Origin: an uncultured Acidimicrobiales bacterium
GTDB lineage: Bacteria > Actinomycetota > Acidimicrobiia > Acidimicrobiales > Aldehydirespiratoraceae
DNA: 64,000 nucleotides
Assembly: GCA_958296055.1 (NCBI GenBank)
Contig: CATQHS010000001.1
Span: 2,390,277-2,454,276 of the forward strand
Direction: 5' to 3'
Made by a program: the position numbers and the translations under genes. Position 1 is the stretch's first letter, and each line of letters opens with the position of its first letter. Positions 4,155-58,633 of this stretch are shown piece after piece. Below the pieces are notes generated by a model that saw only the letters and a program-made list of their open reading frames with translations, ran no database searches and was not told the origin of the DNA.

Positions 4155-4190
4155 GGCGGCCTCCCTCTCTTGAGGCTGCGACCCGTCCAC

Positions 4191-5387: not shown

Positions 5388-5397
5388 CGGACTGACC

Positions 5398-6728: not shown

Positions 6729-6732
<4 letters not shown>
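5398..6732 (+). CDS. prpF: PrpF-family proton-shifting isomerase (methylaconitate / oxalomesaconate type)
   Basis: This 444-residue protein is close to the usual PrpF length of about 390-400 plus insertions. The N-terminus has the family signature SFWRGGTSRAVLF, then GSPDPGGRQVDGLGGGSSSLSK and FTGNCGNISAAIGPFA with the family-conserved Cys. PrpF proteins isomerise double bonds in unsaturated tricarboxylates such as 2-methylaconitate or 4-oxalomesaconate by proton abstraction. A Pro/Ala-rich insertion between about residues 285 and 325 contains repeated AP stretches. The GTG start follows the citrate synthase by 10 bases, and the stop overlaps the next gene's GTG by 4 bases, so all three are translationally coupled. 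Confidence 0.88.
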
Positions 6733-9473
<2,741 letters not shown>

Positions 9474-12924: not shown

Positions 12925-13025
12925 CATCAAACTCCTTCGGGTGGAACGGCGAGGGATTGTACTACCTAATATTCTGAACCGTCCAATCCGGTTTGGGCCC
13001 ATTCGCCAAAGCGGTGCCGGTTCGG

Positions 13026-13554
13026 TCAACCCATGAGAAGCCGGTAAGCGGTCCGACCTCTTGCGGCCGTGTCATCGGGGAGGCTCCTCCACGCGCGGTG
13101 ATCGACGTCGGCTAGCCCATGCCTTGCCCGCAATCGTTTTCGATCCTTCGCTGTCATCTCTTCTCTCGTCGCCAGCGGGTCGTCCAAGAGGCTGAGCAGC
13201 AGGGCCAGATCGAGGAGTTGGGCGTCGGGCAGATCGTCGACGGCGACCGCCGCGGCCTTGCAGACGATGGCTCCGAGCAGCGAGGGACGCGGCACGAGAC
13301 CGCTCGAATCTCCGAAGACGACCGGCAGATACTCGCTGCGATTCAACGCCTGAGTGCCTCCGGGGACCTGGATCGTCTGGCTGGCGGAGTCGTCGTCAGA
13401 TCGGTTCGAGGGCCGAGACCCTCGGGGGCGAGCACGTCGTCCACTGGGCAGGATGCAGGTGGGCCAACTCGATCAGCGTGGACCAGAGTTCGTCGTCGTG
13501 GCCGGGCAGCGGTCGCAGCCGGACCGGTTCTCGGTTTAGGACCGGCCAGGGCAT
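13026..13554 (-). pseudogene. Decayed AbiEii-like nucleotidyltransferase toxin gene
   Basis: The reading frame opens with an ATG overlapping the upstream gene's stop (ATGA) and gives MPWPVLNREPVRLRPLPG up to HLHPAQW. It then meets a stop at 13396. A second frame carries DVLAPEGLGPRTDLTTTPPAR, and a third carries TIQVPGGTQALNRSEYL up to the stop at 13026. The three pieces look like the start, middle and end of one actinobacterial nucleotidyltransferase (AbiEii-like), recognised from memory. The expected catalytic segment between the first two pieces is missing, so there is at least one internal deletion and two frame breaks. The intact partner is the HTH gene upstream. The family identity is moderately certain; the broken frame is directly visible. 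Confidence 0.7.
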
Positions 13555-14219
13555 CACGGCTGGCTCAGCAGCGACACTGCGAGGCGCTTGGACCGATCGT
13601 CGCTCGCGTCGAGCAGATCGAGGGCCACCACGAGGATCGGAGCCACCTCTTCGTCGGGCCGGAAGGGCCAGACTTCGTCCTCGACGGCCTTGAGCACGAC
13701 GTTGGGCCGCTCCGGCCCCTCGATGAGAGCGAATCTCCGAGTGACATCCGCGATGTCTGACTCGGGCATGTAGGCCTCATATCCGCCGATGGCGATGAGG
13801 TCGAGGCCGTGCTCGCCGGTGGCGCTCAGGCCGGTGCGAACGGCTCGGGCCGGTCCGGGGAGCTTGTCGAGCACGGAGGGATGCCCGTAGAAGCGCCGGG
13901 TCGCGGCCCGGGTCCGCAGACGCTCAGCAAGAGGTAAAAGGCCCGACGCCAGGCGTCGGCGCGCCCGCGATTGGGCCACGGCGGAGCCTTCAATCTCGCG
14001 GCCGTCGGCCAAGGCGAGGACGTTCCATGCCGACGCGGCCTTCCACGGCCGGCCGGCGCGGCCACCGCGGTCGGCGACCAAGTCGAGAGCGGCGCGGTCG
14101 ACCGCCCACACCCTGCCGATCCGGCTGCCTCGCAGAGTTCCGCTGGCCAGCATCTGGCGCACACGCCTCTGGCTGACGCCCAGTTCAGCCGCCGCATCGG
14201 CCACCCCGACCACTTGCAT
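13554..14219 (-). CDS. Helix-turn-helix protein, putative antitoxin partner of the broken nucleotidyltransferase
   Basis: This 221-residue protein opens with an excisionase/MerR-like helix-turn-helix: VADAAAELGVSQRRVRQMLA, then GSRIGRVWAVDRAALD (residues about 4-45). The rest has no motif I can name, but it includes YGHPSVLDKLPGPARAVRTGLSA and a C-terminal acidic helical part. Its stop overlaps the ATG of the decayed nucleotidyltransferase, as in a two-gene toxin-antitoxin operon with the regulator first. There is no ribosome-binding site and an AT-rich stretch (TAGTATTAT) ends just before the ATG, so the transcript may be leaderless. The antitoxin role is inferred from the arrangement. Confidence 0.7.
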   Translation of the reverse strand: MQVVGVADAAAELGVSQRRVRQMLASGTLRGSRIGRVWAVDRAALDLVADRGGRAGRPWKAASAWNVLALADGREIEGSAVAQSRARRRLASGLLPLAERLRTRAATRRFYGHPSVLDKLPGPARAVRTGLSATGEHGLDLIAIGGYEAYMPESDIADVTRRFALIEGPERPNVVLKAVEDEVWPFRPDEEVAPILVVALDLLDASDDRSKRLAVSLLSQP

Positions 14220-14317
14220 TTCATAATACTACCACATAGAGACTAATTATGATGCAGGCGCAGTCTCATGCCAGCTCTAAGGGCCCCCGCAAATATCGTT
14301 TGCGGTGTTCTCGCTGC

Positions 14318-15430
14318 TTAGTCGGCCTTGTCGCGGATCCAGTCCCGGGCGATCGGGTGGGCAAAATTGATCCGGCCCTTGCCGGCGGCGACCACCATGC
14401 CGGCTTTGATCAGCCGCCGCCGGTAGACGCCGGCGTACTTGACGTTGACTCCGAGCCGGGCGGCTATATCAGCGAGTTTGGACGAACCGTCGTCGCCGGT
14501 CATTGCCGTGAGAAACCTTCGATCCCCATCAGACAGTCCTCGCCATGTCGGATCAAGCACGAGCCGACCGATGCGCCGTTCGGCTTCGCTGATCCCCTCT
14601 GCCGCCTCTTGAGCGGTGATGCCCGCCGAGGGATCGGCCGCAGCCTTCCAGGTGTGGAACCCGACGAGCTGGACCATGAACGCGTATCCACCGGTGGCCG
14701 CGACTGCTTCTTCCAGGGCCCGGGAGTCGATGGCGGCGCCGCGCTGCTCGACGGGCCCGACGATGGCGGCGTTCGTGGCCCGGGGATCGAGCCGGCCGAT
14801 GTCGTACCTTGAGCACCGCTGAAGGAACGTCGCGGCGCTGTCGGACAGGAGCGTGTCCTCGATCTGGGGGAGCGCGGCACCGGCGAACGCAACCGGGCGT
14901 TGTTCGCGCCTGGTGACGTGCTGCACCACCGCGCCGAATTCCCGGATCTCGTCGAGGTCGCCGCTTTGTAGCTCGTCGAGGGTGATCATGAGGCCGGTGC
15001 CGTTCTCGGCGAGACGATCACCTAGATCAGAGAGCACCATGCGAAGGTCTCGGGCCACATCGACTGTCGGTGCCGATTCGAGTTCAAGGCCGAACCCGCC
15101 AACGGTCAAGCTCCTGAGACGTCGGCTCAGCCCAGCGCTTCCGCCACTGTTCAGAAGCTCCGCCGCGGCGCGGGTGAGACGGGGCAGAAGTCCGCCTGCC
15201 GTCGCGTCGTTCGAGAGCGTCAGCCATCCTCGGCTGCGGGCCAAATCCTCGACCGCGTTCAAAGTCACGGTCTTACCGGCGCCGCGAATTCCAACGAACA
15301 GAGTGGTGTAGTCGGGGTGTGTCGGCCCGGTGGCCAGAGCGTCCTCGATGTTGTCGAGTATGTCGTCGCGTCCGGCCAGCACCGGCGGCGAGGCGCCGAA
15401 CGTTGGGGAGAACGGATTCCGCGAAGCCAT
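14318..15430 (-). CDS. ORC1/Cdc6-like AAA ATPase with C-terminal winged helix
   Basis: This 370-residue protein has Walker A GIRGAGKT (47-54) and Walker B LMITLDEL (147-154). The C-terminal part (about 300-370) resembles a winged helix (LADIAARLGVNVKYAGVYRRRLIKAGMV). Such ATPases resemble Cdc6/ORC or MalT-type regulators and are common in mobile or defence-linked regions. The start ATG at 15430 lies just after GGGAG. Longer frames with starts up to 15538 run into the tRNA terminator and are unlikely. It is a single gene, 98 bases from the HTH gene downstream of it. The function is unknown. Confidence 0.8.
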   Translation of the reverse strand: MASRNPFSPTFGASPPVLAGRDDILDNIEDALATGPTHPDYTTLFVGIRGAGKTVTLNAVEDLARSRGWLTLSNDATAGGLLPRLTRAAAELLNSGGSAGLSRRLRSLTVGGFGLELESAPTVDVARDLRMVLSDLGDRLAENGTGLMITLDELQSGDLDEIREFGAVVQHVTRREQRPVAFAGAALPQIEDTLLSDSAATFLQRCSRYDIGRLDPRATNAAIVGPVEQRGAAIDSRALEEAVAATGGYAFMVQLVGFHTWKAAADPSAGITAQEAAEGISEAERRIGRLVLDPTWRGLSDGDRRFLTAMTGDDGSSKLADIAARLGVNVKYAGVYRRRLIKAGMVVAAGKGRINFAHPIARDWIRDKAD

Positions 15431-15545
15431 GTCTCCCGCTCCTTTAGTTTGCTTTATCCTTTTTGATTTCTTTAGTGTAGCCGGGCTGGGGAGACTCTGA
15501 CGGAGGGGATGAAGAAGGACCGGCCGGGACCGGCACATGAAAGAA

Positions 15546-15578
15546 CCCAGGCCGAGCAGTGCTCTGACCTGGGCTTTT

Positions 15579-15579
<1 letters not shown>
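15546..15579 (-). terminator. Hairpin terminator after tRNA-fMet
   Basis: The arms CCCAGG (15546-15551) and CCTGGG (15568-15573) enclose a second stem GAGC/GCTC with a three-base loop. On the plus strand the hairpin is followed by CTTTTT. On the minus strand it directly follows the tRNA end and is followed by a shorter T-rich tail. It can act in both directions. Confidence 0.65.
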
Positions 15580-15655
<76 letters not shown>

Positions 15656-15660
15656 CCCCG

Positions 15661-15690
15661 AACCTAGCGCCAAAGCCACTCAAGTCACAA
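15661..15690 (-). promoter_or_regulatory. Putative promoter of tRNA-fMet
   Basis: On the minus strand TTGTGA (15690-15685) is followed after 18 bases by TAGGTT (15666-15661). This would start transcription very near the 5' end of the tRNA. The match is by eye only. Confidence 0.4.
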
Positions 15691-15758
15691 CCTCCACGAA
15701 GAACTCACGGAGAACTCCAGGCCCCTCGGGCGCGGGGCAGCAACCTCGGGGCCGTCCG

Positions 15759-16655
15759 TCAGGCAGGCGACTCGGCTGCTTGTAGGTCCTTGAGAGTCTT
15801 GTTGTCGCTGGTCTTCCATTCCGTTAGGCCGTTGGCGGTACGGCCGAGTAGTGCCCCCGCGGCCGTCGACGGTGACGAGAACTCGTGATCCTCAGTGAGG
15901 CGTAGGTGGCCGCCCTCTTCGACGAGGAGCCCTCCTTGGCGCAGCGCTTCTCTAACTCGGTCGATAGTGTGACCTTTTAGCGACGGCACTTGTTCCACTC
16001 GACCGAGTGAGTCTGCGAAAACGAGGAAACCGTCGGCGGTCTCAATTCCCTTGGCCTCGGTGTCCTTGCCGCGAAGGTACAGAGGAAGCGGAGCCGATGG
16101 CTGTTCATCGGACTGGCGGAAAGCTGCCGCGCCTGGTTTCTGGAAGACCTGCACGCCAAGCACGGGGTAGATGAGCAGCATCTCGTTGAGGAAGGTCTCG
16201 GCTTCGGCGGTGTCTGGCTCCGACAGTGTTGGCCTCGACCCTGCATTGGCGTTTTCCGTCTCGGCCCGGTTTGCCTCGGCTGCCAGTTCGATCAGTCGAG
16301 CTTCCAGGTATCGGATGTGGGCCTTGTTGAGATTGTTGTCCTTACTAGTGAAGACGATGACCCGGTTCCAGAATTCCTTGTTCCGATGGTGGGCGTCGAG
16401 GCGGTCGGGGAGGTTGTCAGTTTCGCCGATGTAGATCTGACTCGCCTTGAGTTCCGACTCGCTGGGACCGATCAGCAGATAGACGCCCGTGCCTTTGAGG
16501 TCCGAACGGGACCGCAGATCCCGGAAGCGAGTCCGGGGTGCCATGAGTGCCTTGCCCGTCCAGTTGCTCTTTTCGGCCACCCAGACACCGTTGGCGCTCC
16601 CATCAGCGAGAAAGATCCTGATGGATGCCCCGAGCGGGCTTGGTATATCGCTCAT
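15759..16655 (-). CDS. GIY-YIG nuclease-domain protein with DUF4357
   Basis: This 298-residue protein has a GIY-YIG core, with GVYLL at 57-61 and YIGET at 75-79, followed by the conserved Arg in NLPDRL. A C-terminal DUF4357-like segment carries DGFLVFADSLGR and later EFSSPSTAAGALLGR. GIY-YIG/DUF4357 proteins are common accessory genes, probably DNA-acting, and are often near restriction systems. The ATG at 16655 was chosen because the sequence upstream of it is intergenic in character. It is divergent from the xsc gene and close to tRNA-fMet, marking the edge of the accessory island. Confidence 0.82.
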   Translation of the reverse strand: MSDIPSPLGASIRIFLADGSANGVWVAEKSNWTGKALMAPRTRFRDLRSRSDLKGTGVYLLIGPSESELKASQIYIGETDNLPDRLDAHHRNKEFWNRVIVFTSKDNNLNKAHIRYLEARLIELAAEANRAETENANAGSRPTLSEPDTAEAETFLNEMLLIYPVLGVQVFQKPGAAAFRQSDEQPSAPLPLYLRGKDTEAKGIETADGFLVFADSLGRVEQVPSLKGHTIDRVREALRQGGLLVEEGGHLRLTEDHEFSSPSTAAGALLGRTANGLTEWKTSDNKTLKDLQAAESPA

Positions 16656-16744
16656 GGCCTGATCATAAGGCAGCGTGGGACTTGTAAGGTCACACTGCCG
16701 GGGCTCGCAGCGCCCGGCCATCAGACGGAGGAGGGGAGCAAACC

Positions 16745-18511
16745 GTGACTCGCATGACACCGAGTGAGGCGTTCGTGGAGACGATGGTGGCCCACGGCGT
16801 CGACACCATCTTCGGCATCATGGGCAGCGCCTTCATGGACGCCATGGACATCTTCGAGCCGGCCGGGATCGAGTTCGTGCCCGTGGTCCACGAGCAGGGC
16901 GCGGCCCACATGGCCGACGGGTTCGCCCGGGTCAGCGGCCGCCACGGGGTGGTGATCGGCCAGAACGGGCCGGGCATCTCCAACTGCGTCACCGCCGTGG
17001 CCGCCGCCTTCTGGGCCCACAGCCCGGTGGTGGTCGTCACCCCCGAGGCGGGAACCATGGGGATCGGCCTCGGCGGCTTCCAGGAGGCCAACCAGCTCCC
17101 CATGTTCGAGGAGTTCACCAAATACCAGGGCCACGTCAACAACGAGCGCCGCATGGCCGAGATCACCGCCCGCTGCTTCGACCGGGCCCTCTCCGAGATC
17201 GGCCCCACCCAGCTCAACATCCCCAGGGACCGCTTCTACGGCGAGATCGACGTGGAGATCCCCGAACCCCAGCGCATCGAGCGGGGCCCGGGCGGGTCCG
17301 CCGCCCTCGATGAGGCCGCCGACCTGCTGGCCAAAGCCGCCTTCCCGGTCATGATCTCCGGCGGGGGAGTGGTGATGGGCGACGCCACCGCCGACGCCGT
17401 CGAGCTGGCCGAGCGGCTGGGCTGCCCGGTGGTCAACAGCTACCTGCACAACGACTCCTTCCCGGCCAGCCACCCCCAGTGGTGCGGACCCCTCGGCTAC
17501 CAGGGGTCCAAGGCGGCCATGAAGCTGCTGGCCCGGGCCGACGCGGTGCTGGCCCTCGGCACCCGCCTCGGCCCCTTCGGCACCCTGCCCCAGCACGGCC
17601 TGGACTACTGGCCCGCCGCCGCCCGCATCATCCAGGTGGACGCCGACTCCAAGATGCTGGGCCTGGTGCGGCCGATCGACGTGGGCATCTTCGGCGACGC
17701 CGGGGCCGCGGCCCGGGCCCTGACCGAGCGGCTCCGGGGCCGGGAGCTGGCCGGCGACGCCACCCGGCCCGAGCGGGCCGCCGCCATCGCGGCCGAGAAG
17801 ACGGCCTGGGAGGCCGAGCTCGACGACTGGACCGAGGAGACCGACGACTTCAGCGTCGACATGATCAAGCAGGCCGCGGCCGAGCCCGGGAACTGGCTGC
17901 ACCCCCGCCAGGCGCTGCGGGAACTGGAGAGGGCCATGCCCCCCCGGGCGATGGTGTCCACCGACATCGGCAACATCAACTCGGTGGCCAACAGCTACCT
18001 GCGCTTCGAGGAGCCCCGGTCGTTCTTGGCCGCCATGAGCTGGGGCAACTGCGGCTACGCCCTGCCCGCCGCCATCGGGGCCAAGAAGGCCGCCCCCGAC
18101 CGCCCGGCCGTGGCCTACGCTGGCGACGGGGCCTGGGCCATGAGCATGGTGGAGGTGATGACCGCGGTCCGCCACTCCATCCCGGTCACCGCCGTGGTGT
18201 TCCACAACCGCCAGTGGGGGGCGGAGAAGAAGAACCAGGTCGACTTCTACGACCGCCGGTTCGTGGCTGGCGAGCTCGACGGGGGCGAGGACTGGTCGGC
18301 GCTGGCCCGGGCCATGGGCGCCGATGGGGTGCGGGTGGACGACCTCGACGACGTCGGCCCGGCGCTGACCCGGGCCATCGACGCCCAGATGAACGCGGGC
18401 CGCACCACCGTCATCGAGGTGATGTGCACCAAAGAGCTGGGCGACCCCTTCCGCCGCGACGCCCTGAGCCGCCCCGTGCGCCTACTCCCCAAATACGCCG
18501 ACTACACCTAG
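16745..18511 (+). CDS. xsc: Sulfoacetaldehyde acetyltransferase (Xsc)
   Basis: This 588-residue protein is a thiamine-diphosphate enzyme matching Xsc, which converts sulfoacetaldehyde and phosphate to acetyl phosphate and sulfite. Xsc-type segments are FGIMGSAFMDAMDIFEPAG near the start, HEQGAAHMADGFAR with catalytic Glu50, AYAGDGAWAMSMVEV with the TDP/Mg motif, and the C-terminal TKELGDPFRRDALSRP. GGAGGAGGGG lies just before the GTG start. Xsc is the last step of taurine and isethionate degradation. The usual phosphotransacetylase partner is not adjacent; a nucleoside-type ABC transporter follows instead. This implies use of an organosulfonate as carbon and sulfur source. Confidence 0.93.
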   Translation: MTRMTPSEAFVETMVAHGVDTIFGIMGSAFMDAMDIFEPAGIEFVPVVHEQGAAHMADGFARVSGRHGVVIGQNGPGISNCVTAVAAAFWAHSPVVVVTPEAGTMGIGLGGFQEANQLPMFEEFTKYQGHVNNERRMAEITARCFDRALSEIGPTQLNIPRDRFYGEIDVEIPEPQRIERGPGGSAALDEAADLLAKAAFPVMISGGGVVMGDATADAVELAERLGCPVVNSYLHNDSFPASHPQWCGPLGYQGSKAAMKLLARADAVLALGTRLGPFGTLPQHGLDYWPAAARIIQVDADSKMLGLVRPIDVGIFGDAGAAARALTERLRGRELAGDATRPERAAAIAAEKTAWEAELDDWTEETDDFSVDMIKQAAAEPGNWLHPRQALRELERAMPPRAMVSTDIGNINSVANSYLRFEEPRSFLAAMSWGNCGYALPAAIGAKKAAPDRPAVAYAGDGAWAMSMVEVMTAVRHSIPVTAVVFHNRQWGAEKKNQVDFYDRRFVAGELDGGEDWSALARAMGADGVRVDDLDDVGPALTRAIDAQMNAGRTTVIEVMCTKELGDPFRRDALSRPVRLLPKYADYT

Positions 18512-34510: not shown

Positions 34511-35799
34511 CCGAAGCGGAGCGGCCGCGGGCCCGACGCCGGGCCCGGCGGCGCCCCGCCCCTCGGGCCCACCCTTTCTGGAGGTTCGGGTTTCCCGTGA
34601 TCGTGGTGGCGGCCGGGGTGGCGGTGCTGCTGTTGAGCCAGGGCGGGGCCCGCACCGTGCTCGACAGCACCGCCGGCGAGGTGGTGGACGTGGTTCAGCG
34701 GCCCGACGAGCCCGGATACGAGGTGTTCGTGCAGCCGACCCCGACGCTGCTGGTGGCCCACACCCACGACGGCGTCCTCACCGGCGTCACCTTCATGGCC
34801 CAGACCGACTTCGAGAGGGGCGGGGCCGCCATCCTCCTGCCGGCCGATCTCATCGTCTTCTACGACGAGGGGGCCGATCGCGGCGGCGAGGCCGCGGGCC
34901 GAGGGGCGAGCGGGGGCGACGAAGCCGGCGCCGCCGAAGCCGGCGGCGATCCCCCGGGCCAGCTCCTATCGCTGGCCTGGGCCGAGGGGGGGCTGGCTCG
35001 GGTGGAGTTCTTGGCTGAGAACCTGTTCGGCTTCGGCTTCGGCGAGGTGATCGAGCTCACCACCGACCAACTGACCACCGTCATCGGGCCGGTTGCGCCC
35101 CTTCCCTACCTGCTGGCCGACGATCTCGCCGTCCGCACCGGGATCGGCGTCACCACTTGGCTGCCCGCGGGCCGGCTGGAACTCGACGCCGCCACTGCCG
35201 CCCGGGTCTACGGGTTCCGCAACCCCGACGAGGCCGACGTCAACCGGGTGGAGCGCCAGCGGGCTATGTGGACGGCGTGGCTGGCCTCCATCGCCCGGGC
35301 CGACGACCCCGGCGCGGTGGTGCTGCCGTTCCGGGACGGGGTGTGGCCGTTCCTGGGGTCGCTGGGGCTCGGATCCGGGGTGGTGGAGACGGCGCCGGTG
35401 CAGCCAGTCGTGCTCGACCCGGGCCAGGCGCCGCTGTATGTCCTCGACGACGAGGGCTCGGCGTGGATGGCGGCCAAGGCCCTCGAGCTGGTACCGTGGC
35501 CCATCCCGGCGAAATCATTCGTGCGTCCGACGGTAAGGCTCCTCGACGGCATCGGGGATCCGTCCGTCCGAGACGATCTGGTGGGCGACATCGTCGCCGC
35601 CGGGGGGGCGGTGACGGTGGTCGGCAATGCCGGGGAGTTCGGGGTGGCCCGCACCGTGGTGGCCTACCACCGGGCTGAGATGGATTCGGCCGCGGCCGAC
35701 CTCGCCGGCCTGCTCGGCGTGGAGCCGGTGCTGCTGGACAACCCCGACCCGCCCACCGACGTCACCATCACCATTGGCCTCGACCAGGTGGTGTCGTGA
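34507..35799 (+). CDS. Membrane-anchored LytR_C-domain protein
   Basis: This 430-residue protein has an Arg-rich N-terminus and one membrane segment near residues 28-46, then a large external part. The C-terminal segment (about 340-430) has the LytR_C look: VRLLDGIGDPSVRDDLVGD, AGGAVTVVGNAGEFG and VTITIGLDQVV. The central part resembles a degenerate LytR-CpsA-Psr domain, but I cannot confirm it. It is located between nadD and rsfS with a 4-base overlap at both ends, a known actinobacterial arrangement. A role in the cell envelope is inferred. Confidence 0.78.
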   Translation: MTEAERPRARRRARRRPAPRAHPFWRFGFPVIVVAAGVAVLLLSQGGARTVLDSTAGEVVDVVQRPDEPGYEVFVQPTPTLLVAHTHDGVLTGVTFMAQTDFERGGAAILLPADLIVFYDEGADRGGEAAGRGASGGDEAGAAEAGGDPPGQLLSLAWAEGGLARVEFLAENLFGFGFGEVIELTTDQLTTVIGPVAPLPYLLADDLAVRTGIGVTTWLPAGRLELDAATAARVYGFRNPDEADVNRVERQRAMWTAWLASIARADDPGAVVLPFRDGVWPFLGSLGLGSGVVETAPVQPVVLDPGQAPLYVLDDEGSAWMAAKALELVPWPIPAKSFVRPTVRLLDGIGDPSVRDDLVGDIVAAGGAVTVVGNAGEFGVARTVVAYHRAEMDSAAADLAGLLGVEPVLLDNPDPPTDVTITIGLDQVVS

Positions 35800-36203
35800 C
35801 GCCGGAGACCGCCTCGGCCGGGTCGGCGGACTCGGCTGAATCCATGAGGTGGGCGCTGGCGGCGGCGGCCGCGGCCGACGACAAGAAGGGGATCGACACC
35901 CTGGTCATCGACGTGGGCGCCGTGATCTCGGTGACCGACGCGTTCGTGATCACCCACGGCGCCAACCCGCGTCAGGTGCGAGCCGTGGTGGAGGGAGTGG
36001 AAGCCGGGGTGAAGGCCGCGGGCGGCCCGGCGCTGGTGCGCACCGAGGGCGCCGACGGCCGCCAGTGGGTGCTGCTCGACTACGGCTGCTTCGTGGTCCA
36101 CGTCTTCGACGCCGAGACCCGCCGCTTCTACCAGCTCGAACGGCTCTGGGCCGACTGCCCGGTCGTCGACCGGCAGGCCGGGGCCGTCCTCACCCGGACC
36201 TGA
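35796..36203 (+). CDS. rsfS: Ribosome silencing factor RsfS
   Basis: This 135-residue protein belongs to the RsfS/DUF143 family, which binds ribosomal protein L14 and keeps subunits apart under low nutrients. Family segments are DDKKGIDTLVIDVGAVISVTD near residue 30, HGANPRQVRAV near 55 and WVLLDYGCFVVHVFDAETRRFYQLERLW near 90. The GTG start overlaps the upstream stop. Length is normal. Confidence 0.96.
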   Translation: MTPETASAGSADSAESMRWALAAAAAADDKKGIDTLVIDVGAVISVTDAFVITHGANPRQVRAVVEGVEAGVKAAGGPALVRTEGADGRQWVLLDYGCFVVHVFDAETRRFYQLERLWADCPVVDRQAGAVLTRT

Positions 36204-36262: not shown

Positions 36263-37165
36263 ATGAGGCCCCTCGCGGTGGTCGTGGCCTTGGCACTGGC
36301 CGTCGTCGGCGTCGGTTGCTCGGGCGACGACAGTGAGCTGACCACGACGGCCGGGGCCCGGCCGGCGGTCACGGAACCCCAGGCGGAGACGGCCGGGGAG
36401 ACTTCGACGTCCGATACGGCGCCGCCTGCGACTGAACCTTCGGATGCGGCGGCGCCGCCCACCACAGAGTCAGAAGAACCGCCGTCTACGACGGAGCCCA
36501 CCCCCACGACGGAGCCCTCGCCCGACCCTGAGCCGGGGGAGGAGTCGCCGGACCCGCCCGACCCTGAGCCGGGGGAGGAGTCGCCGGACCCGGCGGTGCC
36601 GGAGGAGCCCACCTCCACGACGAAGCCTTCGCCCGACCCTGAGCCGGGGGAGGAGTCGCCGGACCCGCCCGAGCCCACCCCTACGACGGAGCCTTCGCCC
36701 GACCCTGAGCCGGGGGAGGAGTCGCCAGACCCGACGGAGCCGGGAAGAGAACCGCCGCCGCCCACAACGGAGCCCGACCCCGAGCCGGAGTCGAAGGGCG
36801 AGCCGGAGTCCAAAGGTACGGAGGAGGAGCCTAAGACGGAGCCGGAGTCGAAGTCCGGCACGGGGACGGGGTCCAAGGGTGAGCCGGAGTCGAAGTCCGG
36901 CACCGAGGGCGAGTCGAAGGGTGGTGCCGAGGGGGAGTCGAAGGACGGTACGGAGGTGCCGGGGTCCAAGGGTGGTACCGAGGGGGAGTCCGGCAACGAG
37001 GGGGAGTCCAGGACTGAGCCTCCGACGACGACCGAGCCGAAGACGGAACCACCTAAGGAGACGGAGCCGGACCCGGACCCGACGACCGAGCCGCCTACCG
37101 CACCCCCAACGACCGAGCCGCAGACGGAACCGCCGCCAGCGGAAAAGGAGCCGAAGAAGGAGTGA
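36263..37165 (+). CDS. Lipoprotein with long Pro/Glu/Asp/Ser-rich repeat region
   Basis: This 300-residue protein has a signal with lipobox VGVGC (Cys19), after which almost the whole mature part is low-complexity. Residues 86-158 contain four copies of a DPEPGEESPDP-type unit separated by Thr/Pro spacers; the rest has ESK and TEPPTTTEP runs. No globular domain is visible, so it looks like an acidic, disordered surface protein. It is the last gene before the tRNA-Ala. I do not recognise a family. The repeated DNA makes the length liable to slippage. Confidence 0.72.
   Translation: MRPLAVVVALALAVVGVGCSGDDSELTTTAGARPAVTEPQAETAGETSTSDTAPPATEPSDAAAPPTTESEEPPSTTEPTPTTEPSPDPEPGEESPDPPDPEPGEESPDPAVPEEPTSTTKPSPDPEPGEESPDPPEPTPTTEPSPDPEPGEESPDPTEPGREPPPPTTEPDPEPESKGEPESKGTEEEPKTEPESKSGTGTGSKGEPESKSGTEGESKGGAEGESKDGTEVPGSKGGTEGESGNEGESRTEPPTTTEPKTEPPKETEPDPDPTTEPPTAPPTTEPQTEPPPAEKEPKKE
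36518..36737. repeat. Coding repeats in the lipoprotein gene
   Basis: Four imperfect copies of CCTGAGCCGGGGGAGGAG plus flanking bases occur with varying spacers. They keep the frame and encode the acidic DPEPGEESPDP units. Confidence 0.75.
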
Positions 37166-37183: not shown

Positions 37184-37258
37184 GTGGAGCTAAGGGGAAT
37201 TGAACCCCTGACCTCTTCCATGCCATGGAAGCGCTCTACCAACTGAGCTATAGCCCCG
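37184..37258. repeat. Copy 1 of a 75-bp identical direct repeat (tRNA-Ala)
   Basis: The 75 bases are identical to 38832-38906, including the whole tRNA-Ala gene. The two copies bracket the AT-rich two-gene cassette as an attachment-like pair. Confidence 0.85.
37185..37257 (-). tRNA. tRNA-Ala (GGC), copy 1
   Basis: The 73-base minus-strand sequence folds as a tRNA with anticodon GGC in loop ATGGCAT. The acceptor stem is GGGGCTA/TAGCTCC with one G-T pair. The 3' CCA is not encoded. It is identical to the copy at 38833-38905. A -10-like TAGACT lies at 37273-37268. Confidence 0.95.
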
Positions 37259-37300
37259 CGGCCAGCGAGTCTAGCGGCTCGTGCCGCCACTTGGGCCGCC

Positions 37301-37329
37301 TTGACTTTTTTGGACGACTGGGGTAACCT
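37301..37329 (+). promoter_or_regulatory. Sigma70-type promoter of the AT-rich cassette
   Basis: TTGACT at 37301-37306 and TAACCT at 37324-37329 are separated by 17 bases. It points toward the two cassette genes, leaving about 175 bases of leader. It lies next to tRNA-Ala copy 1 on the opposite strand. Confidence 0.6.
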
Positions 37330-37510
37330 GAAATTCCAGGAGATTTACTGTCGTGATATTAACAAACGAGCAGATTTTGTGGAAGCTGGCCGTGGGGGGG
37401 GAAGGGGCATGTCAGTCGTTCATTCTAGTAGTAGCGTGTTCGGGCACGAATGTTCTGTAATCTAGAAATGGGGAGAAGCTGGTGAGCACATTGAATGTTA
37501 GCAGTTTCGT

Positions 37511-38020
37511 ATGACTGAGCAAGTGGATATAACTACTGATCAAGATATTGAGCGTTTAGTCCAGTTACCTAAGAAGATTCAATCTAAGACGCCTGTTAAA
37601 GGCTATCGAGAAGTTCATTGGCATAAACGTTGTGATCTGGAGTTACATGCTACGCTAGATAAACGTGTAACTTTTTCGATATTTATTCGTCAGAGCATTA
37701 AGTTTCCTGAAAATTTCTCCATTGGGCTTCGTTATAAAACGGACGATAAAACGCTTGGAACTATTACACTTGTCCGTTACAACGGGCCACATGGGACACC
37801 TAGTCACTGTAATAATCATCACTACAGGTATCATATTCATCGTATAACCGTTGCTGAGATTGAATCCGGCAGTATAGAGCCTCAAGAGAGTTCTAAAGAG
37901 ATCACTACTCGGTACGGAACCTTTGAGGAAGCTATCGCCGTGTTTTTCAATGATGTCAGAGTATCTAACTGGAATCAGTATTTTCCAGATCAAAGGAGCT
38001 TGTTCAATGGATATGAGTAG
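37511..38020 (+). CDS. Unknown protein of the AT-rich cassette (possibly DUF6978-like)
   Basis: I cannot name this 169-residue protein with certainty. It contains a His-rich central part (HCNNHHYRYHIHR near residues 99-111) after RYNGPHGTPS, with basic and beta-like segments before. The pattern resembles DUF6978 proteins, which have a similar NGP-H/HIH region, but this is from memory. Its end overlaps the next gene by 14 bases, so the two are translated together. Low G+C and codon use unlike the host point to recent transfer. Confidence 0.65.
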   Translation: MTEQVDITTDQDIERLVQLPKKIQSKTPVKGYREVHWHKRCDLELHATLDKRVTFSIFIRQSIKFPENFSIGLRYKTDDKTLGTITLVRYNGPHGTPSHCNNHHYRYHIHRITVAEIESGSIEPQESSKEITTRYGTFEEAIAVFFNDVRVSNWNQYFPDQRSLFNGYE

Positions 38021-38771
38021 TCTCAAATCTAAATTGGAGGGTTCGTTAGTACAAGACCTATATGAACGCCGTTCAAATATTTATCAGCTAATCGTCCCTA
38101 TACATCATGAAGATGGGGATATAGTAGACGTTTATTTGGAGGAAAGTCCCCTAGGAAATGGACATATCCGTATCTGTGATTTTGGACTGACCCTAATGCG
38201 CCTTTCCTATACATTCGAAATAGGCACTAGTACGCGCCAACGGATTTTAGATAGTATCCTTATCAATAATGGCGTCAAGAATGATAATGGTAACTTATAT
38301 CTTGACACTCCAATTGACCTCCTCTGTGAAAGGGTTCTTCAGTTCGCCGGGTGTGTACAAAAAATATGTAGTATGCGTTATTGGAATAGGGATATTGTGC
38401 GCAGTACGTTTTACGAGGATTTGAAAATCTATGTTACTACAGAGTTGGAACAGTTCTCCCCTATGCCTGATATATCCCCTCTGGTGGATTATTCTATTAT
38501 CAGCGTAGATTGGACTTTAACTATCAACAATCGGTCTCTGTACATCTATGGGGTTACAGGCAACGACAAGGCTAAAGGAGTAGCCATTTCTTTATTAGAG
38601 TTACATAAACGACGTCTGCAATTTATAAGTATGGTAGTTCATGAAGATTTTGAAAATTTGGGATCAAAAGAAATTACCTATCTCACGAAAAATGCTGACA
38701 CCCAGTATCCTACTTTGGAAGATTTTAAGGAAACGAGTATTCAAGATATTGAACGGTTAGTGCCCGCTTGA
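38007..38771 (+). CDS. DUF1828-domain protein of the AT-rich cassette
   Basis: This 254-residue protein fits DUF1828 in its N-terminal half, with ICDFGLTLMRLSY near residue 53, then a segment on removal of helices (TRQRILDSILINNGV) and LYLDTPIDLLCERVLQFAGCV. The C-terminal half (IISVDWTLTINNRSLYIYGVTG) resembles DUF1829. Such proteins occur on phages and plasmids and their role is not known. AAGGAG lies eight bases before the ATG at 38007, within the end of the preceding gene. A longer frame starting at 37923 lacks such a site. Confidence 0.7.
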   Translation: MDMSSLKSKLEGSLVQDLYERRSNIYQLIVPIHHEDGDIVDVYLEESPLGNGHIRICDFGLTLMRLSYTFEIGTSTRQRILDSILINNGVKNDNGNLYLDTPIDLLCERVLQFAGCVQKICSMRYWNRDIVRSTFYEDLKIYVTTELEQFSPMPDISPLVDYSIISVDWTLTINNRSLYIYGVTGNDKAKGVAISLLELHKRRLQFISMVVHEDFENLGSKEITYLTKNADTQYPTLEDFKETSIQDIERLVPA

Positions 38772-38831
38772 TAATTTAAGTCTTTTTTGCCATTAGTGCA
38801 GGATATTCTGAACAAAAACAGGAAGTGACTA

Positions 38832-38906
38832 GTGGAGCTAAGGGGAATTGAACCCCTGACCTCTTCCATGCCATGGAAGCGCTCTACCAACTGAGCTATA
38901 GCCCCG
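38832..38906. repeat. Copy 2 of the 75-bp identical direct repeat (tRNA-Ala)
   Basis: It is identical to 37184-37258. About 23 bases farther on, GCCCCGCGGCC and AAGTCTA resemble the sequence that directly follows copy 1, so the upstream promoter region of the tRNA was partly duplicated too. Confidence 0.85.
38833..38905 (-). tRNA. tRNA-Ala (GGC), copy 2
   Basis: It is base-for-base the same as the tRNA at 37185-37257, minus strand, anticodon GGC, CCA not encoded. A -10-like TAGACT lies at 38941-38936, farther from the tRNA than in copy 1. Either copy could be the original. Confidence 0.95.
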
Positions 38907-38979
38907 AGCCGCGGCGCTGAGCCCCGCGGCCGGCAAGTCTAATAGACCGGGCCGCCGTTCATCTCACCGTCCACGCCGT

Positions 38980-39858
38980 TCACCCGGCGGCGCCCTGGTC
39001 GCGCAGGAACCGCTCCACCTCGGCGGCCAGGTCCTCGCCCGAGGGCAACTGGTCCACCATGGCGCCGGTCTCGTCCATGCGCCGCTCCAGCTCGGCCACC
39101 ATCTCCTGGTGGGAATCCTCGGCCGCCACCAGCTCGTCGAGGCGGCTCCGGGTGGTGATGGCCCGCTCGGCCAGAGGCCCGGGGTCGAGCTCCAAGCCTG
39201 CCGCGTCGGCCAGCCCCTCGATCAGGGCCACCGAGGCGGCCGGGTAGGGGGCGGTCGACACGTAGTGGGGAACCTGGGCCCACAACCCCAGGGTGGGGAT
39301 GCCGGCCTCGGCCAGGGCTACCTCCAGCACCGACTCCACCCCGGCCGGGACGTCCAAGGTGGCCGGCGGCCCGCCGGGCTTGGCCAGCTCGGCCGACGAG
39401 GCCGTGGTCGACAGCCGGGGCGGCCGGGTGTGGGGCACCGGCGCGGGATAGGCGCCCAGCCCCACCATGATGGATACCTGCCGGCCGGTGGCGTAGTCCA
39501 CGACGGCCTCGGCGAAAGCCCGCCAGTTGTGGTCGGGCTCGGCGCCGTGCAGGAACAAGACGTCGGAGTCCTTGTCGTCCCGGCCGGACGCGAACTCGAT
39601 CGTGGGCCACTCCAAGCCGGTGTTGACCCCCTCGACCAAGTGCATGATCGGCCGCCGGGCCCGGTGGTCGAGCAGCCACTCGGTGTCGAAGCGGGCCACC
39701 GCTGTCGCCTCGGCCGCTTGGACAGCCCGGGCCATGGCCGCCGCGGCCGAGCCCCCGGCGTCGAACCACCCCTCGAAGTGCACGACCATGGCCGGCTGGT
39801 GGAGATCGACCTGCCGCAGCACGGTGAGCAGGTCGGCGGGGTCGGCGCTGCGGGCCAT
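38980..39858 (-). CDS. PAC2-family protein
   Basis: This 292-residue protein matches the actinobacterial PAC2 family, named after a proteasome assembly chaperone. Segments are VVHFEGWFDAGGSAAAAMARAV near residue 25, FLHGAEPDHNWRAFAEAVVDYA near 100 and LGLWAQVPHYVSTAPYPAASVALIEGLA near 195. The C-terminus is a charged helix with many Glu and Asp. The ATG at 39858 is the first start after the divergent intergenic gap with the thioredoxin gene. Function in bacteria is not established. Confidence 0.85.
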   Translation of the reverse strand: MARSADPADLLTVLRQVDLHQPAMVVHFEGWFDAGGSAAAAMARAVQAAEATAVARFDTEWLLDHRARRPIMHLVEGVNTGLEWPTIEFASGRDDKDSDVLFLHGAEPDHNWRAFAEAVVDYATGRQVSIMVGLGAYPAPVPHTRPPRLSTTASSAELAKPGGPPATLDVPAGVESVLEVALAEAGIPTLGLWAQVPHYVSTAPYPAASVALIEGLADAAGLELDPGPLAERAITTRSRLDELVAAEDSHQEMVAELERRMDETGAMVDQLPSGEDLAAEVERFLRDQGAAG

Positions 39859-49755: not shown

Positions 49756-50451
49756 GTGACCGGCAGGCCGACGGCTCCCGACGGCTGGGGCGGCCCGCAC
49801 GCGCTGGTGACCGACGTCGACGACCCCGAGTTGAGCCGGGCCGATCGCCACCACTTGGAGCGGGTCCTGCGGCTGGCGGCTGGCGACGCCCTCACCGTGG
49901 GCGACGGGGCCGGGGGGTGGCGGCCCTGCCGGTTCGGGCCCCGGCTGGAGCCGACCGGCCCGGCGGCGCGTGCGCCCGCCCCCGAGCCCGCTCTGACCGT
50001 CGGGTTCGCCCTGGTCAAGGGGGCCAGGCCCGATCTGGTGGTGCAGAAGCTGACCGAGTTGGGCGTCGACCGGGTGCTCGCCTTCCGGGCCGACCGGTCG
50101 GTGGTGCGGTGGGACGAGGCCCAGGCCGCCCGGGCCGTCCAGCGCTGGCGGCGGGTGGCCCGGGCGTCGGTGATGCAGTGCCGGCGGCTGTGGCTGCCCG
50201 CCATCGAGGAGGTCGCCGACTTCGACGGGCTCGATCTCGCCGGCGCGGTCATGGCCGTGCCCGGCGGCCGGAGCCTGGGACCGGGCGAGAACGCGGTGTT
50301 GATCGGCCCCGAGGGCGGCTGGACCGCTCGGGAGCTGTCGTCGGGGCCGCCCCAGGTGGGCCTGGGGCCTCACGTGATGCGGTCGGAGACGGCGGCCATG
50401 GCGGCCGGGGCCCTGCTCGCCGCCCGCCGAGCCAACTGCCTCCCCGGCTGA
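49756..50451 (+). CDS. rsmE: 16S rRNA (uracil-1498-N3)-methyltransferase RsmE
   Basis: This 231-residue protein fits RsmE, a SPOUT methyltransferase that modifies U1498 of 16S rRNA. Signature segments are RADRHHLERVLRLAAGD, ALVKGARPDLVVQKLTELGVDRVLAF, and the knotted C-terminal IGPEGGWTARE with LGPHVMRSETAAMAA. The GTG start is 88 bases after dnaJ. The dnaJ-rsmE pair is widely conserved. Confidence 0.95.
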   Translation: MTGRPTAPDGWGGPHALVTDVDDPELSRADRHHLERVLRLAAGDALTVGDGAGGWRPCRFGPRLEPTGPAARAPAPEPALTVGFALVKGARPDLVVQKLTELGVDRVLAFRADRSVVRWDEAQAARAVQRWRRVARASVMQCRRLWLPAIEEVADFDGLDLAGAVMAVPGGRSLGPGENAVLIGPEGGWTARELSSGPPQVGLGPHVMRSETAAMAAGALLAARRANCLPG

Positions 50452-51399: not shown

Positions 51400-52751
51400 G
51401 AGTGACCGCCCGAGGCGAGCAGGTGCGATCGGGTCGTGGTGTGGACGCGGAGCCGGTCGCAGGCGCCGGGCCCGTCGCCCCTTTCGAGTTCGACCCCGAT
51501 CAGGTCGTCGACCACCCGGCGGGTGGAGGCGTCTGACTCCGAGATGGTCGCGCCCGGCGGGGGCCACTGGTCGAACAGCGCCACTTGGCCGGTGTCGGGC
51601 CGGGCGATGGCGGGAGTGGCCACGCCGTCGCAGTCCCAGTCCCCGATCACCACCAAGTCGTCGGGTTGGCCTATGGCATAGCGGCGCCCGTCCCGGTCGT
51701 GTATGAGGCCGGCCTCCGCCCCGGCGGGGTCGGGTGCCCCGGTGGCGGCCCGGTCTGGCCCGGCGGGGTCGGGTGCCCCGGTGGCGGCCCGGTCTGGCCC
51801 GGCGGGGTCGGGTGCCCCGGTGGCGGCCCGGTCTGGCCCGGCGGGGTCGGGCGTCCCGGCGGTGCTCTGGCCTGCCTCGGCGGAGTCGGAGGTCTCAGCG
51901 GTCCTCTCGCCCGGTTCGGCGGCGGGGGCGTCTGCCATTCCCGCCAGCCCAAACGGCTGGTCGGCTGATCCCGGCGGTCGGCTGCGGCTTTCACCGGCGG
52001 CGGTGACGGCCGCGGGCGGTCCGGTCGGATCGTGGCCGCCGGCCGACCCGCCGAGAACGCCGGTGAACACTACGGCCATGACCGCCAGCCCCGCCGCGGT
52101 GGCCGGCAGCGCCCGCCGCCGGGGCCGGGGGCCGGGATCGGGCTGCTTGTCGGAGCGCAGGTCCTGACCGGGCTGGCCCCCCTTGGGCTTCGGGTCAGAG
52201 CCGCCGACCAGCCGGTCCAGCCGCCGGGCCAACTCCCGGGCCCCGAGCCGCCCGGCCCGGGTCGAAGCGGCCAGGTCGGCCAGCTTGTCGGTCACCGGGC
52301 CGGGGACGAGGGCCTCGTCCCACACCAGGTCGGCCAAGGCGACCAGATCCTCCCGCCGGTGCTCGGGCCCGGCGTCGCCGCTGCGGCTGAAGCTGCACAG
52401 CACCGGCCGGTCGCCGCTGCCGTGGAGGACGTGGCTGCCGTCGAGATTGCGGTGGGCTATCCCGATGTCGTGCAGGTCGGCCACCACCGCGGCCAGCGCT
52501 GCTCCCGCGCTGGCTCTGTCGTCCGGGTCGGTGAAGGGTCGGGTCGCCCAGTTGTCGGAGCCGACGAACTCGGTGTGCAGCGCCGCGGCTCCGTCGTCGC
52601 CCCGGCGCAGGTCGATGATCTCGACCACGCCAGGATGGCTCAGCTTGCGGAGGATCCCGGCTTCCCGCTCGATCTCGCTGGCCCGCTCGGCCGCCGCCTG
52701 CTTGACGGCGATCAGCCGATCCTCGGACCGGCTGATGGTCACCGACGCCAT
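51396..52751 (-). CDS. Membrane-spanning pseudokinase with extracellular repeats
   Basis: This 451-residue protein begins as a Ser/Thr kinase fold: Lys17 in LIAVKQAA, helix EIEREAGILRKLSHPGVV, and a catalytic-loop position reading HRNLDGSHVL (100-109) in place of HRDLKPxN. The catalytic Asp is Asn, and no DFG motif is found, so it is probably inactive. A membrane segment lies near 214-236. Outside it has three copies of GAPDPAGPDRAAT (about 300-340) and a motif VVIGDWDCDGVATPAIARPDTG that resembles FG-GAP-type repeats. It is the first gene of a two-gene operon with the LysM protein. Confidence 0.78.
   Translation of the reverse strand: MASVTISRSEDRLIAVKQAAAERASEIEREAGILRKLSHPGVVEIIDLRRGDDGAAALHTEFVGSDNWATRPFTDPDDRASAGAALAAVVADLHDIGIAHRNLDGSHVLHGSGDRPVLCSFSRSGDAGPEHRREDLVALADLVWDEALVPGPVTDKLADLAASTRAGRLGARELARRLDRLVGGSDPKPKGGQPGQDLRSDKQPDPGPRPRRRALPATAAGLAVMAVVFTGVLGGSAGGHDPTGPPAAVTAAGESRSRPPGSADQPFGLAGMADAPAAEPGERTAETSDSAEAGQSTAGTPDPAGPDRAATGAPDPAGPDRAATGAPDPAGPDRAATGAPDPAGAEAGLIHDRDGRRYAIGQPDDLVVIGDWDCDGVATPAIARPDTGQVALFDQWPPPGATISESDASTRRVVDDLIGVELERGDGPGACDRLRVHTTTRSHLLASGGHS
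51717..51850. repeat. 39-bp coding minisatellite in the pseudokinase gene
   Basis: Three near-identical 39-bp units (GGTCGGGTGCCCCGGTGGCG core on the plus strand) encode the extracellular GAPDPAGPDRAAT units. Confidence 0.85.
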
Positions 52752-57438: not shown

Positions 57439-57513
57439 CGGGCTGTGGCGCAGTTTGGTTAGCGCGTCGGTCTGGGGGACCGAAGGTCGGGAGTTCAAAT
57501 CTCCCCAGCCCGA
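57439..57513 (+). tRNA. tRNA-Pro (GGG)
   Basis: The 75-base sequence has acceptor stem CGGGCTG/CAGCCCG, T-arm GGGAG/CTCCC with TTCAAAT, and an anticodon loop CTGGGGG with anticodon GGG. The CCA is not encoded. A -10-like TAGCCT lies at 57423-57428. The Mrr-like gene ends 16 bases downstream on the other strand. Confidence 0.93.
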
Positions 57514-57529
57514 CAAACAAAAGCCTTCG

Positions 57530-58633
57530 CTATTCCTCGACTGACTGCGACGACCAGATCCGCTTCAATGGAAGATTGGCGCGAAGGTCCTCGCTCAGTT
57601 TGTCGTAGTTGCGTAGCACGGCTTCGAGCAGATTGTCGGCGTCCCATAGTCGTATCTGGAAGAATTGATTGCGCAATTCCCTGCGGGCAGCCGTGTTGGC
57701 GCCGCCCCAGGCAACGAGCAAGGCCTGTTCTGCGCCGTGTGTGGTCAGGACGCCTTGCAGTTCCCGAACGATGTTGACGCCGACTGACGACTGGCCGGAC
57801 TTGACTTGCACGATCAGGCGAGGGCTGTCCAATCCGAGAGGACCACGACCGGCGAATATGTCTATGCCACCGTCGGGTCCAGCAGGTGAAACCTGAGTGA
57901 AAAATCCCTCGGCTTCAAGAACCCCGGCCACTAGATCACTTAGCCGATGGCCGGCGAAACGCTCGGAGATCAAGGCTTGGATTTGGTCTTGACCGAGGCG
58001 CTCTAGATCGAAGTCCGATGCGGAGGAGTCGGTCACGTCTGTTACTTCGGGGGAGTCGGTCACGTTGGTGTCGCTGTCCGCGGCTCCGTCGTCGGGCTTG
58101 ATCCACGCGCCAGGATCCTCACCCTTCAAGAGCAGTTGGTGGAGGCGCCGAGCCCCGTCGTTGCGTTTTATCGAACAGAGGGCCAGAGCCGAGCCGAGTG
58201 AGTACAGAAGATCCTGTCTGACGGCTGTCCGCGGTACGTCAGTGCGCTTCCAGTTCACTGACACGACATGGCGAACGCCCGGTTCGGCGTCGTTCCCTCT
58301 ATACCGGTACCCTTCCGTCACTATCCCCAGCGCGATCTGAGAAGTCCTCTTGCGCGGCAGGACCACCAAGTCGCCACGGCGCACTTGTCCCCGCAGAGCC
58401 CATAGCTGAGTTACGTAGTTGGTGAGCTGCATTTTCTTCTTGGCGGCCCAGGGAGCCTCTCTGCGAATGATTTTTTCAATATCATCGCGGCTTGAGGCCT
58501 CTGACAGGTCGGGAAGTTCATCCCAACCCAAGGAAGCAATGCCCTGTTCGATAACGAGGTCTTCAAACTCCCCTGCGCCGCCTGCTCTGATGAGCCATGC
58601 GACCGGGGCCGCAGTCTGCTCTGGGTCTGTCAT
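57530..58633 (-). CDS. Mrr-type restriction endonuclease with N-terminal EVE/PUA-like domain
   Basis: This 367-residue protein has an N-terminal part that resembles an EVE/PUA modified-base reader (WLIRAGGAGEFEDLVIEQGIASLGW, LWALRGQVRRGDLVVLPRK). Its C-terminal part is a Mrr catalytic domain with Asp258 (GPDGGIDIF) and QVK at 276-278 (RLIVQVKSGQSSV). This is the plan of type IV, modification-dependent restriction enzymes. It lies directly after tRNA-Pro, a frequent insertion site, and its G+C is below the host level. The target modification is unknown. Confidence 0.87.
   Translation of the reverse strand: MTDPEQTAAPVAWLIRAGGAGEFEDLVIEQGIASLGWDELPDLSEASSRDDIEKIIRREAPWAAKKKMQLTNYVTQLWALRGQVRRGDLVVLPRKRTSQIALGIVTEGYRYRGNDAEPGVRHVVSVNWKRTDVPRTAVRQDLLYSLGSALALCSIKRNDGARRLHQLLLKGEDPGAWIKPDDGAADSDTNVTDSPEVTDVTDSSASDFDLERLGQDQIQALISERFAGHRLSDLVAGVLEAEGFFTQVSPAGPDGGIDIFAGRGPLGLDSPRLIVQVKSGQSSVGVNIVRELQGVLTTHGAEQALLVAWGGANTAARRELRNQFFQIRLWDADNLLEAVLRNYDKLSEDLRANLPLKRIWSSQSVEE

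Follow-up and report, generated by a model that had tools for sequence, protein, structure and literature searches.

A candidate antiphage operon of foreign composition between two complete tRNA-Ala(GGC) genes in an uncultured Acidimicrobiales bacterium

Background

At ordinary integrase sites, only a 3' fragment of the tRNA is left at the far end of the inserted DNA. We analysed a window of 64,000 nucleotides (the whole stretch of DNA under study) from an uncultured Acidimicrobiales bacterium, in which a short cassette with two genes lies between two copies of tRNA-Ala(GGC). With integrative elements and islands that occupy tRNA 3' ends, for example a viral contig described below (L114/L116), this locus has in common the tRNA, the end that is used, the flanking direct repeats and a site that is single-copy in relatives. 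It differs from them in that its repeat comprises the whole tRNA and part of the 5' flank, its cargo is one operon and it has no integrase. Partial tRNA duplications are reported for prophage integration in an excerpt of PMC3119063, whereas those in the window are whole. The excerpted text of PMC10872708 describes tycheposons of 4-200 kb with a tyrosine recombinase, and an additive flexible genomic island of Methylophilaceae in which 20 bp from the end of a tRNA-Lys gene recur. Like both of these, as far as that text goes, the cassette is cargo bounded by tRNA sequence; unlike the tycheposons described there, it measures 1.57 kb, lacks a recombinase and has a complete second tRNA.

The two genes also have described relatives. 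PDC candidates were discovered by way of genes that sit inside other defence systems (excerpt of PMC12988326, citing Payne et al. 2024), and both models of one of them, PDC-M24, are matched by the pair in the window, the two genes being adjacent on one strand. This pair stands alone between the tRNA genes and is not embedded in a restriction operon, in contrast to relatives such as those at loci L039, L041 and L053; we treated embedding as the discovery route of PDC candidates and not as a criterion of the models. Among the repressor-side accessory genes of Pseudomonas phage 5399, a related pair travels inside the phage. What is known, then, is the pair as a candidate and the class of the site. 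What is new is that a single operon as cargo, a complete second tRNA and the lack of a recombinase come together.

Results and discussion

A foreign segment bracketed by complete tRNA genes

The insert between the two tRNA copies (37259-38831) is 1,573 bp long and has a G+C content of 0.409. The window's minimum at that length (0.404, from position 37302) overlaps it, and the lowest value elsewhere is 0.495 (from 11361). GC3 is 0.35 and 0.37 in the two insert genes, compared to 0.91-0.94 in three host ORFs. By composition the insert is foreign DNA, in agreement with the initial annotation, which had noticed a low-G+C segment here.

Two 75-nt blocks (37184-37258 and 38832-38906) bracket the insert. 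They are 100% identical and each contains a complete minus-strand tRNA-Ala(GGC), as detected with ARAGORN and a repeat search; both copies score 69.9 bits against the Rfam tRNA family (RF00005). The initial annotation had taken these identical 75-bp copies as the duplicated unit. Their identity and completeness hold, but the unit is longer, as a second repeat block of 37 nt with 78% identity (37252-37288 and 38920-38956) runs into the 5' flank of each tRNA. Since the similarity continues into the 5' flanks, what was duplicated is the tRNA with part of its promoter-like flank. The right copy has 20 extra nt between the tRNA and this flank (repeat spacing 1648 versus 1668), and without them the right flank is 0.71 alike to the left one over 35 nt. 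Near the place of the left-flank TAGACT, many relatives have TAGCCT or TACGAT, and no origin can be named for the left copy because one relative (L013) is equally close to the left flank. The insert has direct repeats at both ends, one being the tRNA gene, and the far (left) copy is complete with a promoter-like flank, not a partial 3' copy. The nearest host genes are rsfS, a LytR_C gene and PAC2, and there are no restriction genes between or next to the tRNA copies (Table 1).

Table 1. Features of the cassette and its surroundings (positions in the window)
Feature	Position	Strand	Basis
rsfS, host side, 3' of left tRNA	35796..36203	+	PF02410, E 7.4e-28
Left tRNA-Ala(GGC), complete	37184..37257	-	ARAGORN, Rfam RF00005, identical to right copy
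Left tRNA 5' flank, G+C-rich, promoter-like TAGACT starting 16 nt before the tRNA	37258..37300	-	Sequence, repeat
Weak promoter-like site TTGACT-N17-TAACCT	37301..37329	+	Sequence; 8/12 positions, counted by hand
Leader	37330..37510	+	Without Rfam family, unusual fold or integrase remnant
ORF1, 169 aa, PDC-M24A-like / DUF6978-like, phrog_27326	37511..38020	+	PADLOC, Pfam and PHROG matches
ORF2, 254 aa from ATG, PDC-M24B / DUF1828, phrog_5059	38007..38771	+	Pfam, PADLOC, PHROG, structure model
Right tRNA-Ala(GGC), complete, likely resident	38832..38905	-	ARAGORN, Rfam; PAC2 on 5' side
20 extra nt, right tRNA to flank	38906..38925	-	Repeat spacing, sequence
Right tRNA 5' flank with TAGACT	38926..38956	-	Sequence, repeat
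PAC2-family gene, host side, 5' of right tRNA	38980..39858	-	PF09754, E 7.3e-48

The consensus-like promoter that had been proposed for the cassette was not borne out. The site matches at only 8 of 12 positions and is missing from the list of the promoter scan, which returned 3 sites in total versus 3.3 expected by chance. The fold of the leader is no better than that of shuffled sequences (z -0.83), and the Rfam search returned no family other than tRNA at the gathering score. No insert ORF resembles an integrase, as had been stated at the outset, and neither these ORFs nor, by eye, the six frames of the leader hold an integrase or phage remnant. A search beside the tRNA copies found no separate partial tRNA repeat that would mark a later insertion. 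A 13-nt stretch of the leader is similar to the inverted 5' junction of the tRNA (P-value 0.028, 500 block shuffles); as it was one of four comparisons, we took it as chance.

A pair of overlapping genes related to PDC-M24

ORF1 and ORF2 are adjacent on the same strand and overlap by 14 nt. When compared with PADLOC-DB 2.0.0, ORF1 matches PDC-M24A (E 2.2e-5, residues 9-102) and ORF2 matches PDC-M24B (E 7e-13), both judged by E value and not by PADLOC's own score thresholds. PDC-M24B is also matched by the second protein of all five relatives that we checked. The first protein matches PDC-M24A at 0.01 in only two of the five, which indicates that the A models are narrow. Of the two family assignments made initially, DUF1828 (PF08861) is clear in ORF2 (54.3 bits, gathering score 22), while the DUF6978 (PF22398) match of ORF1 stays below the Pfam cut-off (24.3 bits, gathering score 29.6). 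PF22398 reaches 46.2 bits in the phage relative and is carried by many homologues in the protein search. Both proteins match phage families of no known function, namely phrog_27326 for ORF1 (E 4.6e-14) and phrog_5059 for ORF2 (E 1.6e-19).

According to fold comparison of its structural model, ORF2 would be composed of a secretion-chaperone-like N-terminal domain and a restriction-endonuclease-like C-terminal domain. In the latter, D168 is invariant in 14 divergent members, and no (D/E)xK motif is present at the following, usual strand; a catalytic residue that has migrated, K188, is possible. ORF1 has four invariant residues (R89, N91, H108 and H110), and its fold has no reliable match in PDB or BFVD. 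Our search of the literature on PDC-M24, DUF1828 and DUF6978 found no functional report of the pair. On the basis of these similarities, ORF1 and ORF2 form a candidate antiphage pair, PDC-M24, with a predicted role in defence.

Relatives of the pair often lie near restriction genes

A protein search at E <= 0.001 returned 581 proteins for ORF2 (its own included) and 259 for ORF1. Exactly equal sizes of the longest contig occur 20 times between the best 120 of the 581 ORF2 relatives and the best 120 of the 259 ORF1 relatives, and these coincidences suggest, as an indirect sign, that the two genes are often together. The spread is sporadic: relatives of ORF2 are found in 8 out of 397 genomes of the order, 8 out of 395 of the class and 3 out of 396 of the phylum, where each count includes the window's own genome (which has one copy of ORF2) as well as partial and weak matches.

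We read the neighbours at 16 other loci with the pair or with ORF2. Partial ORF2 matches (L043, L044, L050, L052/L060, L078, L079 and L080) were left out as separate pair loci, and so were the short forms L074-L077, of which L083, L058, L081 and L082 are the longer stretches. The pair lies between a methylase and ResIII at L039, follows a methylase and a ResIII-like gene (score just under the cut-off) at L041, and has HsdM, GmrSD, HsdS and a C5-methylase in its context at L053. A helicase with a ResIII match is one ORF away from the pair at L055, and at L056 a helicase adjoins the pair, with a DUF1156 gene two ORFs further. At L057, ORF2 without ORF1 lies between ResIII and a methylase. L054 has beside it a restriction fragment with a below-cut-off ResIII match, and a DUF1156-like remnant was recognized, by eye only, at L058 and L059. 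Links to mobile elements also occur: a tyrosine integrase gene is directly upstream of the pair at L042, and in Pseudomonas phage 5399 (L045) a related overlapping pair is separated from the upstream cI by one small gene. Both phage proteins match PDC-M24 and are 27-28% identical to those of the window. We saw neither restriction nor prophage or integrase neighbours at L038, L040 and L081-L083. The PDC-M24A/B matches, together with the frequent location of relatives in or near restriction genes, support the defence-type pair that had been suggested initially.

The search, proposed initially, for other such pairs beside duplicated tRNAs was negative: only one of the 15 other loci with the pair or ORF2 that were scanned has a tRNA in the fetched stretch (L040, with tRNA-Thr 129 bp beyond ORF2), and no second copy is present in that stretch. 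Phages gave no DNA match to the cassette, and plasmids no protein match to ORF2; viral relatives were found neither with the ORF1 profile nor with the ORF2 of L056. An excerpt of PMC10821479 places a DUF1828 gene of S. aureus beside a prophage slot. We discarded this as a parallel, since the 1,600-nt remnant described in that excerpt holds other genes.

The site carries a single tRNA gene in relatives

In 50 other genomes of the family, near-identical copies of the tRNA (at least 89% identity) occur exactly once in 43 genomes and twice in none, although draft assemblies may hide second copies. The remaining seven, mostly draft genomes, have no full-length copy at 89% or more. We fetched 29 loci around tRNA-Ala in the family, some of them cut by contig ends, and each has one tRNA-Ala. 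Among their neighbours, rsfS is found 3' of the tRNA at 7 loci, and 5' of it are PAC2 at 3 loci and thioredoxin at 6; PAC2 and rsfS occur together at L017. At least one expected neighbour is present at 15 of the 29 loci, and the other 14 have none of rsfS, PAC2 and thioredoxin within 1.5 kb per side or are cut short. These 15 loci are the chromosomal site of the cassette without the cassette, at the level of the family, the samples containing no genome of the same genus. The single-tRNA empty site that the initial annotation had asked for is thus found.

Downstream sequence turns over at the 3' end of the tRNA

We compared 80 nt on each side of the tRNA in same-genus locus pairs, with 35 GGC and 20 CGC loci entered; a pair was dropped where either side was shorter than 80 nt. 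For tRNA-Ala(GGC), downstream identity of at least 0.75 is kept in only 3 of the 24 pairs with upstream identity of at least 0.75 (94 pairs in all), and mean downstream identity is 0.60, with random G+C-rich sequence at 0.58. For the control, tRNA-Ala(CGC), the downstream flank is kept in 14 of 19 (43 pairs in all; mean 0.83), bearing in mind that pairs in both sets are non-independent and that the control spans fewer genera. Thirteen of the 24 genome pairs are common to the GGC and CGC sets, and each of them has the lower downstream identity at GGC. By these sequence comparisons, the 3' end of tRNA-Ala(GGC) behaves as an insertion hotspot.

In three genomes (G001, G011 and G014), contig boundaries fall 0-6 nt past the 3' end of the tRNA. 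Nine proteins chosen from the 3' side of 25 loci in relatives include AbiEii (L035), a nucleotidyltransferase (L033) and two transposases (L021 and L025); the other five are an enzyme, a cupin protein, a transporter and two without a match.

Recombinases that could act at this site

In the 34-kb viral contig (L114/L116), the last 33 nt of the tRNA lie 52-64 nt before a tyrosine-recombinase gene. The partial sequence of this recombinase scores 22.0 bits against PF00589, under the cut-off of 27.1, and its full ORF matches tyrosine-recombinase models of NCBIfam (best E 6.2e-13), far under the equivalog cut-offs. In the family it has weak matches in 3 out of 51 genomes (E 6.5e-6 to 9.9e-4), none of them in the genome of the cassette. 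On a second viral contig (L115), an integrase gene (PF00589, 33.9 bits) follows 65 nt after a complete tRNA-Ala(GGC). When pieces of the tRNA were searched in viral sequences, a 36-nt pattern had no match and a 27-nt piece had two. A recombinase for the 3' end of tRNA-Ala(GGC) exists in nature. Viral contigs with the tRNA end near a recombinase, and a downstream flank kept in 3 of 24 pairs versus 14 of 19 at CGC, bear out the use of this tRNA as an insertion site that had been supposed from the window.

The host genome has two matches to PF00589, closest to XerD (L061, beside a NUDIX-like gene) and XerC (L062), and none to PF07508. L061 is over the cut-off of the tyrosine-recombinase model NF001399 and just under that of XerD, and L062 is under the XerC cut-off. 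At least four related genomes among the matches listed (G011, G070, G032 and G021) have an integrase on the tRNA contig at about 20-32 kb. We rejected these as elements at the tRNA site, there being no tRNA-Ala repeat around them beyond short, chance-like pieces.

Possible origins of the cassette

We give an even chance to the reading that a foreign PDC-M24-like operon entered at the 3' end of the right tRNA, the resident one, through the action of a recombinase encoded elsewhere, the second tRNA being the incoming one. The right tRNA is likely the resident because its 5' side, with PAC2, is the conserved side. The completeness of the far copy makes it likely that a whole tRNA, flank included, was part of the incoming DNA. 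This DNA may have consisted of the operon and a promoter-tRNA unit, in the form of a small circle or a fragment, with a related genome as a possible source, and crossing-over within the tRNA sequence would have left one complete tRNA on each side, so that the cell would have lost nothing. A phage or an element targeting the same tRNA 3' end could have supplied the recombinase, and we infer that the cassette was moved in trans. Once in place, ORF1 and ORF2 are predicted to act together given the 14-nt overlap of their genes. The modelled chaperone-like domain of ORF2 would hold the partner or a phage trigger, and its modelled restriction-endonuclease-like domain would engage nucleic acid. Since this C-terminal domain keeps D168 and shows no (D/E)xK at the usual strand, ORF1 is predicted to be the likelier catalytic partner.

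It is somewhat unlikely that the cassette instead goes back to a prophage or integrative element of larger size at this tRNA, from which the integrase and other genes were deleted and the defence pair was kept. Viral contigs do carry the tRNA end beside recombinase genes, related pairs occur after a prophage cI or beside an integrase, and the tRNA 3' end has the behaviour of a hotspot, as such an origin would have it. However, neither the insert ORFs nor the leader, read in six frames, show an integrase or phage remnant, the boundaries tightly match a single operon, and the remnant of an ordinary element would be expected to keep only part of the tRNA, whereas the copy here is complete and has its flank. 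Duplication of a whole tRNA together with a similar but diverged 5' flank (37 nt, 78%) is what the arrival of a chromosomal fragment would produce. Donor chromosomal DNA could have come by transformation, transduction or a gene transfer agent and been fixed by homologous recombination between the tRNA-Ala genes of donor and host, without a site-specific recombinase, and the host genome indeed has no recombinase beyond the two Xer-like ones. We nonetheless hold this route to be unlikely, as 74 nt is short for homologous recombination and the turnover at the 3' end in many relatives suits site-specific integration better.

Two complete copies with promoter-like flanks that have diverged could also have arisen if a tandem duplication of the tRNA in this lineage came first and the operon then entered between the two genes. 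This order of events is quite unlikely: two copies are found in none of the 50 relatives, and flanks that differ by 22% plus 20 extra nt, next to tRNAs that do not differ at all, would make the duplication old, yet the composition of the operon is still foreign. Moreover, a separate partial tRNA repeat, as the mark of a later insertion, is missing beside the copies. As for the pair itself, there is a small chance that it is a toxin-antitoxin or addiction module kept for stabilisation and not for phage defence. The two small overlapping genes would agree with such a module, and the resemblance of the modelled N-terminal domain of ORF2 to chaperone folds would suit the holding of a partner. Against it, embedding in restriction operons is the discovery route of PDC candidates and favours defence, although the two roles overlap in practice.

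Conclusions

Extending the preferred reading of a foreign operon inserted by a borrowed recombinase, we tentatively propose, as a rather doubtful possibility, that the locus is a minimal mobile immunity cassette, in which one defence operon travels together with its attachment site, a tRNA gene that is complete and transcribed. Such a cassette could be moved by whichever integrase, of a phage or of a satellite, acts on tRNA-Ala(GGC). Other genes of restriction type and lower G+C, which lie next to tRNA-Pro and tRNA-Met in the window, would then be cargo that follows this strategy too. Bringing in a whole tRNA with its own promoter would leave the tRNA of the host undamaged and both ends functional. 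A unit of 1.6 kb is probably below the size sought by island finders. The locus links a candidate system with a predicted defence role, PDC-M24, to restriction operons, prophages and a tRNA site, and it offers a concrete substrate for experiment in the form of the operon, the two tRNA ends and the 3' end of tRNA-Ala(GGC). If this proposal is true, immunity genes would move as a single 1.6-kb operon that borrows both its attachment site and its recombinase.

Lower-G+C genes beside other tRNAs of the window

At tRNA-Pro lies a gene for a restriction endonuclease (Mrr_cat, E 6e-24), whose end is separated by 15 nt from the 3' end of the tRNA; the two genes are convergent. No second copy of tRNA-Pro occurs within the window. 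Genes of lower G+C are also found on both sides of tRNA-Met, and the matches of the DUF4357 gene to RAMA and GIY-YIG are both below the cut-off. The gene adjoining the left tRNA-Ala(GGC), on the rsfS side of the cassette, is made up of tandem repeats rich in P, E, T and S, with periods of 24-111.

Two further tRNAs called by ARAGORN (tRNA-Gly and tRNA-Glu) are probably false, given their length and their location in DNA of very high G+C with numerous partial matches close by.

Features of the window and of L039, a locus of another genome
Feature	Coordinates	Length (nt)	G+C (window mean 0.70)	Position
tRNA-Met and flanking genes	10651-16760
AAA_16 ATPase gene			0.65	3' side of tRNA-Met, 40 nt off
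GmrSD_N + AlbA_2 gene			~0.53	3' side of tRNA-Met
DUF4357 gene			0.61	5' side of tRNA-Met
Repeat-built gene	36493-36990
tRNA-Gly call	49863-49953	91
tRNA-Glu call	51956-52049	94
Mrr_cat gene at tRNA-Pro	57439-58633		0.59
Restriction operon (L039)	1535-7861

tRNA-Ala(GGC) copies and the gene pair elsewhere

In two of the compared genomes, the tRNA-Ala(GGC) match covers only the first 37 nt (G063:C56) and 40 nt (G064:C138), and these are either contig ends or interrupted genes. In the viral contig IMGVR_UViG_3300020438_000133 (L116), a 33-nt copy of the tRNA-Ala 3' end adjoins the recombinase gene, of which no further relatives were found in viral_contigs.

Relatives of the ORF1/ORF2 pair in L039 lie in a type III-like restriction operon, between the methylase and the ResIII gene. 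The methylase gene shares 4 nt with ORF1, and ORF1 likewise 4 nt with ORF2, an arrangement that looks like a single transcription unit.
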